The translations under genes were made by a program, and so were the position numbers. DNA of 64,000 nt. Source: Chloroflexota bacterium. Its GTDB lineage: Bacteria; Chloroflexota; Dehalococcoidia; Lucifugimonadales; Lucifugimonadaceae. The notes beneath the pieces are model-generated. The model did not search any database and was not told the origin of the DNA. It was given only the letters and a program-made list of their open reading frames with translations. Position 1 is the stretch's first letter, and each line of letters opens with the position of its first letter. Below are positions 2,440 to 6,759 of this stretch, piece by piece. The stretch covers positions 8,496 to 72,495 of the forward strand of contig PAXI01000002.1 in the NCBI GenBank assembly GCA_002714425.1, read 5' to 3'.

Positions 2440-3675
2440 TTAATTTAAAAGTTCAACTCTAGCTCTAGTAATTCTTCTACCGATAACATGTTGAACTGTT
2501 ATCCTGAGTTTATCAATATTAATTACTTCTCCAATTGAAGGCATCTTCCCTATATGTTTTAGTATCAAGCCTCCAACTGTATCAAATCCATCTGCCAAAA
2601 TATGCGTTGTAAAATATTGATTAATATAGTCAATTGATACGCCGGCATCAACTAATATAACTGAATCACTTATTTTTTGAACTTCTGGGCCTTCAATATC
2701 AAATTCATCAACTAATTCACCAACTATTTCTTCGATTAAGTCAGTTACTGTGACTAAGCCTGATACACCACCGTACTCGTCAATAACTATAGCTATACTT
2801 GTCCTGTGTTCTTGTAATTCTCTAAGTAATTTTTCCAAACTTTGAGACTCAGGAACTCTTAGCGCAGGCCTAACTAGTTCATTTATAATAATCTTCTTAT
2901 TTTCTGTCCCAAGTGCGTCTCTAGCGTATGCAATTCCAACAATTGTATCAATCGAATCTTTGTAAATAGGTATTTTGCTGTGCCCTCCTACATTCATAAG
3001 TTCGATGATAGATGTAAGATTCTGGTTAGAATCAGCAGTAATCATATCAACCCTAGGAACCATAATCTCTCTAACTTTTACGGTATCCATACGCAATATG
3101 CCTCTAATCATTTTTAGTTCTTCTTCGTCTGCAGGTATTACATCATCTTCTAATTGCTCTAATCTTTCTTGAAGATTAGCATAAACATCTTGGTCAACAG
3201 CTTCATTACCTAGACCTCTTGACAGTAAAAAAGAAATAATTTTTGAAATAAGTGGCAATCCACTTATGAAATTTAGTAATTTTCCAATTGGAAATGTGAA
3301 GGTTCTAAGATTATTAATCCACATACTGCAAATAGCTGATGCAATTATATGCAAAAGAATCCCTATGGATAGAGTTGAAAAGAAACTTATAAAGATTACT
3401 TGACTTGTATTTAAGGCATCAAGACTAATAAGTTCTTTAAATAAGAAATTGGATAATAAAACTAGAAATAAAGTTTGTAGCCCCCTACCAACAGCTGAAG
3501 ATTCGGCAGATAATCTTTCTAAATGTATATCCTCATCGTTATTTTTATTAGAATTTTTAATTGATGAAGGAGTTGCGATGACTCTAGTACCTAAGGAACT
3601 TAGCGTCAATGAAATTAGAAAAAAACCTACTAAAGGAATTGAAAAAAATAATACTGAGGCTAATGAATTAAGCAA
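2440..3675 (-). CDS. CNNM/CorC (HlyC) family membrane protein with CBS pair
   Basis: The 411-residue protein has an N-terminal membrane region (about residues 1-25, 70-90 and 95-120 hydrophobic), then a CBS-domain pair (IMVPRVDMITADSNQ; STSIAIVIDEYGG-type motif HRTSIAIVIDEYGGVSGLV; LIEEIVGELVDEFD) and a C-terminal CorC_HlyC domain (GFDTVGGLILKHIGKMPSIGE). The family is linked to Mg2+/Co2+ efflux or resistance and was first labelled hemolysin C. The TTG start is strongly supported by TAACTGGAGGTAGAA directly upstream. The membrane part is divergent from typical DUF21 sequence, so the transport role is inferred from the cytosolic domains. Confidence 0.88.
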   Translation of the reverse strand: MLNSLASVLFFSIPLVGFFLISLTLSSLGTRVIATPSSIKNSNKNNDEDIHLERLSAESSAVGRGLQTLFLVLLSNFLFKELISLDALNTSQVIFISFFSTLSIGILLHIIASAICSMWINNLRTFTFPIGKLLNFISGLPLISKIISFLLSRGLGNEAVDQDVYANLQERLEQLEDDVIPADEEELKMIRGILRMDTVKVREIMVPRVDMITADSNQNLTSIIELMNVGGHSKIPIYKDSIDTIVGIAYARDALGTENKKIIINELVRPALRVPESQSLEKLLRELQEHRTSIAIVIDEYGGVSGLVTVTDLIEEIVGELVDEFDIEGPEVQKISDSVILVDAGVSIDYINQYFTTHILADGFDTVGGLILKHIGKMPSIGEVINIDKLRITVQHVIGRRITRARVELLN

Positions 3676-3790: not shown

Positions 3791-4414
3791 TCATTTAATT
3801 GATTTTGCTGGGACTCCAGCAACAATATCGTTACTTAAAACATCTTTTCGAATAACTGATCCTGCTCCAGTTTTAGCATTTTTTCCTATTGTTACAGGAG
3901 CAATTATCATACTGCCTGCACCAATAAAAGCTCCTTTTTCTATAACTGTTCTATGCTTTTTTTCTCCATCATAATTACACGTAACAGTACTAGCGCCAAT
4001 ATTGACATTTTCACCAATTGTAGAGTCACCAATATATGAAAAATGAGAAATAGTTGATTTTTCACCAATTATAGAATTCTTAACTTCTACTAGATTACCT
4101 ATTTTACAATATTTTTTTATATATGAACCGTCTCTAATTAGTGAATTTGTACCAGCAAACACATTATTTGATATTTCCGAATCCCTAATTATAGCGCCAT
4201 CTATCTCACAATTATCACTAATTACACTATTAGATATTTGACTATTAGGTCTAATAATTACATTTTTTCCAATTTGGGATCCATTCTTTATATGAACCCC
4301 TGGTTCAACTGTTGTCCCTATACCTATTTTCACATCATCATCTATGTAAACATTTTTTATATCAATAATGTTTACTCCATTTTTTTTATGTTTATTAATG
4401 TTTAATTGATTCAT
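3791..4414 (-). CDS. Stand-alone GlmU C-terminal-type acetyltransferase (left-handed beta-helix)
   Basis: The 207-residue protein matches only the C-terminal half of GlmU, the domain that acetylates glucosamine-1-phosphate for UDP-GlcNAc synthesis. It begins at the linker (GVNIIDIKNVYIDDDVKIG) and runs through hexapeptide repeats to the end; no N-terminal uridylyltransferase domain with its GTAGP-type nucleotide motif is present, and none lies upstream. The acetyltransferase residues known from E. coli GlmU (R333, K351, H363, Y366, N377, N386, K392) all have counterparts at the same spacing: R94, K112, H124, Y127, N138, N147 and K153. It is therefore probably active. The pyrophosphorylase must be a separate gene, or the substrate differs. 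Next gene leftward is the CBS protein, about 115 bases away. Confidence 0.87.
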   Translation of the reverse strand: MNQLNINKHKKNGVNIIDIKNVYIDDDVKIGIGTTVEPGVHIKNGSQIGKNVIIRPNSQISNSVISDNCEIDGAIIRDSEISNNVFAGTNSLIRDGSYIKKYCKIGNLVEVKNSIIGEKSTISHFSYIGDSTIGENVNIGASTVTCNYDGEKKHRTVIEKGAFIGAGSMIIAPVTIGKNAKTGAGSVIRKDVLSNDIVAGVPAKSIK

Positions 4415-4528: not shown

Positions 4529-4618
4529 GGAGAGGTGCCAGAGCGGTTTAATGGGCACGCCTGGAAAGCGTGTGTGGGTGCAAGCTCACCGCAGGTTCGA
4601 ATCCTGTCCTCTCCGCCA
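4529..4618 (+). tRNA. tRNA-Ser (anticodon GGA)
   Basis: A complete class II tRNA: acceptor stem GGAGAGG pairs with CCTCTCC, the anticodon stem CACGC/GCGTG encloses loop CTGGAAA with anticodon GGA at 4563-4565, a long variable arm (about GTGGGTGCAAGCTCACC) follows, and the T arm contains GGTTCGAATCC. Discriminator G and an encoded CCA end the gene. It reads UCC and UCU serine codons. It is the only tRNA I find in the window. Confidence 0.97.
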
Positions 4619-4707: not shown

Positions 4708-6759
4708 TTGTCAAAAAATCTCGTCATTGTTGAATCACCAACTAAAGCAAGAACCCTGCAAAGATTTTTGGGTAACAATTACATAGTTGAGTCATCCGTT
4801 GGACACATTAATAATCTTCAGTCAGGATACGGGGCAAAATATAGCGGCCCAGTGGTTGGCGTAAATGAAGATTTTGAACCAATTTGGCAACTTGAAAAAG
4901 GTGCAAAAACAAGAATAGACAATCTTCACAAATTAGCAAAAAAATGCGAAACAATATATTTAGCAGCTGACCCTGATCGAGAAGGAGAAGGTATTGCCTT
5001 TCACGTTGCTAATGCATTAATTGAAAAAAAAGAGCCAAAGGAAAAATTTAGAAGAGTTGTTTTTCATGAAATTACTGAAAAAGCTGTCAAAGAAGCCTTC
5101 GAAAAAGCAGGTGAAATAAACATGGATCTAGTTAATGCCCATATAGGAAGAAGATTAGTGGATAGACTAGTGGGTTTTTCACTAAGTGGACTTACATCAT
5201 CATTACTTAGACTAAAAAGACTATCAGTGGGAAGAGTTCAATCTGTTGCTGTAAGTATAATTAAGGACAAAGAAGATGAAATAAAAGCTTTTATTCCAAA
5301 AGAATACTGGAATATAACTGGTTATTTTTCTAAAAACAAGCAATCATATGAAGGAAAGTTATTTGAGGTCGACGGAAAATCTCAAAAAGAACTAATAATA
5401 TCAAATAAATCAGACGCATCAAATATTCAAATTAACCTAGAAAAACAAAAATATAAAATAGATTCAATTAAGTCTAATATTAGAAAAACCAAGCCAAGAG
5501 CACCATTTACAACTAGCTCACTTCAGCAATTTGCATCATCAAGATTAAGATTTAGTCCATCAAGAACTATGAGAATAGCACAACAATTATTTCAAGGAAT
5601 AAATTTAGGGCAAGGCGAAGAGGGTCTAATAACATATATGAGAACAGACTCAAATGTATTATCAGAAGATTCATTGAGTCAAATAGGAAGTTTTGTTAAG
5701 AGTTCCTATGGAAATAATTACTACAACGTAAGAAAATATAAAACTACATCGGCTAATGCACAAGAAGCCCATGAAGCCATAAGACCCACTTCAATAAAAC
5801 GTACTCCTGAATCAATACAAAAATATCTAGATGAAAATCAATTCAAATTATATGATTTGATATGGAGAATAACAATAGCCAGTCAAATGGCTGAAAGTGA
5901 AAATAAAAAGACGTCAATAATTACTTCTTCCGAGAATGAGAATTATAAATTCAAATCTGAATATGACGAGTTGATTTTTGATGGATATAAAAAACTATTT
6001 CCTGATAAAAAATCTGATAATATGCCGGATATTGTGGAAAAAGAAATTGTGGACCTTGATTCAATTACAAAAGAACAAAAATTTACCCAACATCCCCCAA
6101 GATATTCTGAAGCATCTCTGATTAAAACTATGGAAGAGCTTGGTGTTGGAAGGCCAAGTACATACGCTAGCATATTAAATACCATTAAAGAAAAAAAATA
6201 TATTTGGGTTATAAATAGATCAATTTTCATCAGTCCTATAGGTAATGCATTAGTTGAAGAATTAAAAAAATATTTTTCTGAAAGTGTTATGGATTATAAA
6301 TTTACTGAAAAAATGGAAAATGATCTTGACCTAATATCAAATGGAAAACTTAAGAGAGATAAATTTGTAAAAACATTCTGGAATAATTTTGAGCCAATTA
6401 AGAATAACTATGAAAAAATTGCTGAAGAAAATCCAAGAAACCCCAGTGAATATAATTTCTTAAGGACAAATATTATTTGTTCTTCCAAGACACCATGTAT
6501 AAATTCGGAAACAGGAAAAGAATTTGAAGAAAATGATCCTCCATTAGGGCAAAAATCATTAAATAAATCCTTAGAAAAATCACGTAGAATGATTTGGATT
6601 AGATTTAGAAATAAAAAAGGTGATGGTGGATTTTTAGCTTGTGAAGATAGAGAATGTAAAGTTACAGCCGACGAAAGTGCATGGGCTGGCTTTGGAAGAG
6701 GAAGAACAAGAACTCTAGAAGCACTTAAAAATTCAATGAAAGAAAAGTGCATTCGTTAG
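4708..6759 (+). CDS. topA: DNA topoisomerase I
   Basis: Type IA topoisomerase that relaxes negative supercoils. The 683 residues hold an N-terminal TOPRIM domain (LVIVESPTKA with catalytic Glu9; YLAADPDREGEG with the acidic metal site near residues 88-92) and the nucleophile Tyr310 in GLITYMRTDS. HRPPARYSEA-type motif appears as QHPPRYSEASLIKTMEELG. The C-terminal part keeps only isolated cysteines (IICSSKTPC and ACEDREC) instead of the usual repeated four-cysteine zinc ribbons, so the tail looks degenerate. The TTG start has GAGG eight bases before it. A TATAAT at 4661-4666 is a possible -10 element. It directly follows the tRNA gene. Confidence 0.97.
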   Translation: MSKNLVIVESPTKARTLQRFLGNNYIVESSVGHINNLQSGYGAKYSGPVVGVNEDFEPIWQLEKGAKTRIDNLHKLAKKCETIYLAADPDREGEGIAFHVANALIEKKEPKEKFRRVVFHEITEKAVKEAFEKAGEINMDLVNAHIGRRLVDRLVGFSLSGLTSSLLRLKRLSVGRVQSVAVSIIKDKEDEIKAFIPKEYWNITGYFSKNKQSYEGKLFEVDGKSQKELIISNKSDASNIQINLEKQKYKIDSIKSNIRKTKPRAPFTTSSLQQFASSRLRFSPSRTMRIAQQLFQGINLGQGEEGLITYMRTDSNVLSEDSLSQIGSFVKSSYGNNYYNVRKYKTTSANAQEAHEAIRPTSIKRTPESIQKYLDENQFKLYDLIWRITIASQMAESENKKTSIITSSENENYKFKSEYDELIFDGYKKLFPDKKSDNMPDIVEKEIVDLDSITKEQKFTQHPPRYSEASLIKTMEELGVGRPSTYASILNTIKEKKYIWVINRSIFISPIGNALVEELKKYFSESVMDYKFTEKMENDLDLISNGKLKRDKFVKTFWNNFEPIKNNYEKIAEENPRNPSEYNFLRTNIICSSKTPCINSETGKEFEENDPPLGQKSLNKSLEKSRRMIWIRFRNKKGDGGFLACEDRECKVTADESAWAGFGRGRTRTLEALKNSMKEKCIR

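Follow-up and report, generated by a model that had tools for sequence, protein, structure and literature searches.

Gene content of the locus

The window, i.e. the entire 64,000-nucleotide stretch analyzed here, comes from a SAR202-type Chloroflexota MAG of genus g1 (hereafter G000; 1.395 Mb in 18 contigs, 95.4% complete). The closest named loci belong to marine Chloroflexi MAGs (91% and 84% identity); next come loci of other Chloroflexota, SAR202 records among them. On the minus strand, an open reading frame that starts with ATG at position 4414 and extends to position 3791 without an internal stop encodes 207 amino acids (3791..4414); based on the ORF, profile matches, alignment and a structural model, the product is predicted to be a stand-alone GlmU C-terminal left-handed beta-helix acetyltransferase, and we denote the gene half-glmU. 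Directly downstream, on the same strand, is the gene for a corC/hlyC-type CBS protein (2440..3675). Upstream, in divergent orientation on the plus strand, are a tRNA-Ser (GGA) gene (4529..4618), which bounds half-glmU, and topA, encoding DNA topoisomerase I (4708..6759). Because half-glmU starts at 4414 and the opposite-strand tRNA-Ser gene begins at 4529, there is no space for an N-terminal domain. A lipoprotein-like ORF with collagen-like G-x-y repeats lies at positions 1760-2368 of the window on the plus strand, and in g1, g5 and g6 similar proteins are encoded next to corC at this position.

When compared to the NCBIfam glmU profile (TIGR01173), the half protein scored 203.6 bits, below the cut-off for the whole bifunctional enzyme (366.85 bits), and the match covers model positions 238-436 of 452 only, i.e. 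the similarity begins at the inter-domain linker and runs on from there, in agreement with the first-pass annotation, which described this gene as the beta-helix half of GlmU alone. In the alignment to E. coli GlmU, the N-domain residues K25, Q76, D105, N169 and N227 are missing from the half protein. Among solved structures, bifunctional GlmUs are the nearest, and the PDB matches reach E = 6e-43; given these matches and the dN/dS values among homologous halves (0.09-0.25, see below), half-glmU is not a chance ORF. Two other family assignments were rejected, namely the archaeal bifunctional sugar-1-phosphate nucleotidylyltransferase/acetyltransferase (TIGR03992; 95.9 bits vs. a cut-off of 292.1) and the NeuD/PglD sugar acetyltransferase (TIGR03570; 81.4 bits vs. 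a cut-off of 160.8).

Conservation of the active site and predicted fold

Using E. coli K-12 GlmU (taken from NC_000913) as the reference, the residues R333, K351, H363, Y366, N377, N386, Y387 and K392 were all found to be identical in the half protein, so that the set of seven that we used to recognize the GlmU C-terminal acetyltransferase (the same residues without Y387) is complete. Their counterparts R94, K112, H124, Y127, N138, N147 and K153 do not vary across an alignment of 27 C-domains of GlmU, and the comparison bears out the previously noted constant offset of 239 between these seven catalytic residues and those of E. coli.

The Hexapep profile matched the half protein with 103.6 bits, as expected of a left-handed hexapeptide-repeat beta-helix like that of GlmU. 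An AlphaFold model built from the GlmU C-domain alignment (mean pLDDT 95.8) consists of a short helix at the N-terminus and, after it, the coils of the beta-helix. In a Foldseek search with this model, the best 35 matches were all GlmU structures, most with TM scores of 0.95-0.98 over the query. Thus, the half protein is predicted to fold as the left-handed beta-helix of GlmU (TM ~0.97 to solved GlmUs).

Altogether, 22 copies of the half are known from three genera (g1, g5 and g6), all with intact frames, and across these the active site is unchanged except for one R333K substitution and some Y387F substitutions. Pairwise dN/dS among the halves ranges from 0.09 to 0.25, indicative of purifying selection. 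The loss of the N-terminal half could, in principle, mark the gene as a decaying relic of glmU, but these dN/dS values, together with the preservation of frame and active site in the 22 copies from three genera, make such decay very improbable, as had been argued from the preservation of the site in the single gene.

Distribution of full-length and partial GlmU

Among the 201 genomes of the order included in the survey (each at least 80% complete), 164 encode a full-length GlmU match above the cut-off. Within that search, the C-terminal half is confined to g1, g5 and g6, with the addition of a diverged 272-aa form in genus g10 (L163:3982-4800 and other loci). The g10 form has V in place of K392 and F in place of Y366, and judging from these replacements, it may be inactive or may have acquired a new substrate.

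The mirror case is found in family f9, where two genomes (G080 and G116) carry a stand-alone GlmU uridylyltransferase half of 245-247 aa (L164:4070-4813 and L165:4364-5101), with the catalytic residues present and located directly before corC; neither the C-terminal half nor GlmS was found in these two genomes. A further N-terminal half, of 241 aa, is present in G059 (contig C15, L160:1424-2149), clustered with genes resembling mnmA, rsfS and argS. Most of its nearest relatives in our set are GlmUs from outside SAR202 (Endomicrobia, Vicinamibacterales, other Chloroflexota and E. coli), and no similar N-terminal half was found in any other genome of the same genus. On these two grounds, it was set aside as a real SAR202 partner of half-glmU; the contig is probably a contaminant, albeit one that itself carries a natural N-terminal half.

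Origin of half-glmU and the number of domain losses

The half-carrying genera g1, g5 and g6, whose assemblies are 0.7-1.5 Mb in size, share the gene order topA, half-glmU, corC, collagen-like lipoprotein, pnp. In relatives, at most loci with enough flanking sequence, corC lies directly downstream of full-length glmU. Given that corC adjoins both the half and the full-length gene, half-glmU is the ancestral glmU stripped of the N-terminal domain and not a paralogue acquired by transfer.

Each of the single-protein trees (GlmU C-domain, CorC and rpoB) requires three changes between the half and full-length states. In the tree of the three joined proteins (rpoB, CorC and GlmU C-domain), g1 is the sister group of g12, which has full-length GlmU (support 98/97), and the two together join g8, likewise with full-length GlmU (support 100/99), with g5 and g6 lying apart. 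A single clade of all halves was rejected by the joined data (AU test, p = 0.014) and survived the test on the GlmU C-domain alone (p = 0.097) and on rpoB alone (p = 0.071). Because g1 nests among full-length genera and a single origin is rejected, the N-terminal domain was lost more than once: the number of losses is at least two and probably three. Regain of the N-terminal domain in g8 and g12, instead of repeated loss, seems less likely.

Candidate genes for UDP-GlcNAc synthesis

G000 encodes a complete GlmS (668.8 bits), and its sole PGM/PMM-family protein is best matched by the archaeal GlmM model (Arch_GlmM; 300 bits, short of its cut-off, 439). Another SIS region resembling GlmS (G000:C1:150417-151598) lacks the glutaminase domain, and the match is broken by one stop; it may represent a sugar isomerase or deaminase. 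The GlmU profile search of the genome found neither a second full-length glmU, which would have implied that half-glmU is a paralogue, nor a separate N-terminal half, and the archaeal bifunctional enzyme was not found either. The proposal that UDP-GlcNAc synthesis is split between two genes is thus upheld in part: a conserved, apparently working half, GlmS and the mutase are all in place, and for the second gene the only candidate found by homology is a divergent GalU-type protein.

That a separate uridylyltransferase half is present and was missed, either through assembly gaps or because it belongs to an unrecognized family, seems improbable. The assemblies are drafts (55-97% complete), and the nucleotidyltransferase families sought were those of the NTP-transferase fold; however, apart from the likely contaminant in G059, no SAR202 genome with the half has a GlmU N-domain match, and the chance of its absence from all three g1 genomes with halves, computed from genome completeness with gaps assumed to be independent, is ~0.0008, and far less for g6.

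Three proteins of G000 belong to the NTP-transferase families: the GalU-type protein, which is the only sugar-1-phosphate nucleotidyltransferase found in this genome, a MocA-like protein whose gene adjoins one resembling XdhC, and a fusion of IspD with IspF. The names MocA, XdhC and IspDF were assigned by inspection of the sequences. The GalU-type protein (G000:C5:29193-29981, minus strand) is divergent: it spans the TIGR01099 model end to end with 245 bits, below the GalU cut-off of 326.8, and the nearest solved structures are UTP-glucose-1-phosphate uridylyltransferases. In G008 (genus g6, 97% complete), the sole sugar-1-phosphate nucleotidyltransferase is likewise of the GalU type. However, two genomes of g1, G001 (81% complete) and G003 (91%), show no GalU but a different nucleotidyltransferase of ~236 aa, and genus g5 has an RmlA-long-type protein of 319-353 aa in place of the GalU type; therefore, no one partner is universal. 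Furthermore, GalU-type genes are present also in relatives with full-length glmU and, accordingly, GalU is not a specific replacement. The PF01704 profile (UAP1-type UDPGP family) had no match in these genomes, and none in the controls either.

A GlmR/YvcK-type protein (CofD superfamily, PF01933) is a candidate for the uridylylation of GlcNAc-1-P made by the half. The GlmR proteins of Listeria, B. subtilis and S. aureus convert GlcNAc-1-P to UDP-GlcNAc with UTP in vitro (PMC10128056), so that a non-GlmU protein is able to perform the step missing here, but in these Firmicutes GlmR is an accessory to full GlmU, and we consider such a role in the half genomes unlikely.

Slightly less probable still is that the half acetylates another amino-sugar phosphate or an amine and that UDP-GlcNAc is not produced. 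The half genomes lack a GlmU-type uridylyltransferase, no MraY/WecA-type transferase was found in them, and a clear UDP-GlcNAc 2-epimerase was detected only in G001; furthermore, SAR202 bacteria have an S-layer but no peptidoglycan (PMC11994032, PMC10444878). However, the residues for GlcN-1-P and acetyl-CoA are unchanged in the 22 halves bar the single R-to-K replacement, the best structural matches are GlmU without exception, NeuD- and DapD-type enzymes matching much less well, and GlmS is retained, whereas the only genus of the order that has the N-terminal half alone has no GlmS match. The unchanged GlcN-1-P site and the retention of GlmS make a different amino-sugar substrate the less likely choice, as far as can be judged from the sequences.

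Discussion

On balance, we slightly favor the explanation, derived from sequence comparison, that the half is a working GlcN-1-P acetyltransferase that originated by in-place trimming of the ancestral glmU and whose product is uridylylated by an enzyme of another family. The bifunctional gene lost the N-terminal uridylyltransferase domain where it stood, leaving a complete beta-helix domain of the type that forms trimers in GlmU; under this scenario, the remaining protein, presumably also a trimer, would acetylate glucosamine-1-phosphate with acetyl-CoA, with the substrate supplied by GlmS and the archaeal-GlmM-like phosphohexomutase. GlcNAc-1-P would then be converted to UDP-GlcNAc by a nucleotidyltransferase of a different family, in G000 most likely the GalU-type protein. 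The loss recurred among SAR202 genera with small genomes and no peptidoglycan, in which the demand for UDP-GlcNAc is presumably low. A more specific and more tentative possibility is that a GalU-type or other nucleotidyltransferase with relaxed specificity makes both UDP-glucose and UDP-GlcNAc, and that the streamlined genera hence independently dropped the uridylyltransferase half. If so, a fused, normally essential step would have been passed to a generalist enzyme.

The half resembles the C-terminal part of the bifunctional GlmUs of E. coli, S. aureus, S. pneumoniae and M. tuberculosis in the beta-helix, catalytic residues and fold, and shares its gene neighborhood with the bifunctional GlmU of Chloroflexota relatives, but lacks the entire N-terminal uridylyltransferase domain. 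Engineered constructs of the E. coli GlmU C-domain (PDB 3twd and 4aa7; about 222-231 residues) show that the same domain folds alone; however, these are laboratory truncations, whereas half-glmU is a natural gene. In Mimivirus, R689 is a GlmU-N-like stand-alone UDP-GlcNAc pyrophosphorylase, so that the final steps of UDP-GlcNAc synthesis reside on separate proteins (PMC9614988), but this is the opposite half, encoded by a virus, with a different order of pathway steps. Among open-access papers, we found no relevant report of a natural stand-alone GlmU acetyltransferase.

Half-GlmU is a recurrent form of this enzyme maintained by selection, and its reading as part of a split pathway is plausible. 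Pathway annotation could score the genomes that carry it as glmU-positive from the half alone. Most of the 201 genomes encode the fused GlmU; the emergence, more than once, of a natural acetyltransferase half under selection shows that the fusion is reversible. More broadly, half-glmU suggests that these ocean bacteria without peptidoglycan either reach UDP-GlcNAc by a route other than GlmU or put GlcNAc-1-P to a use that does not involve UDP-GlcNAc.
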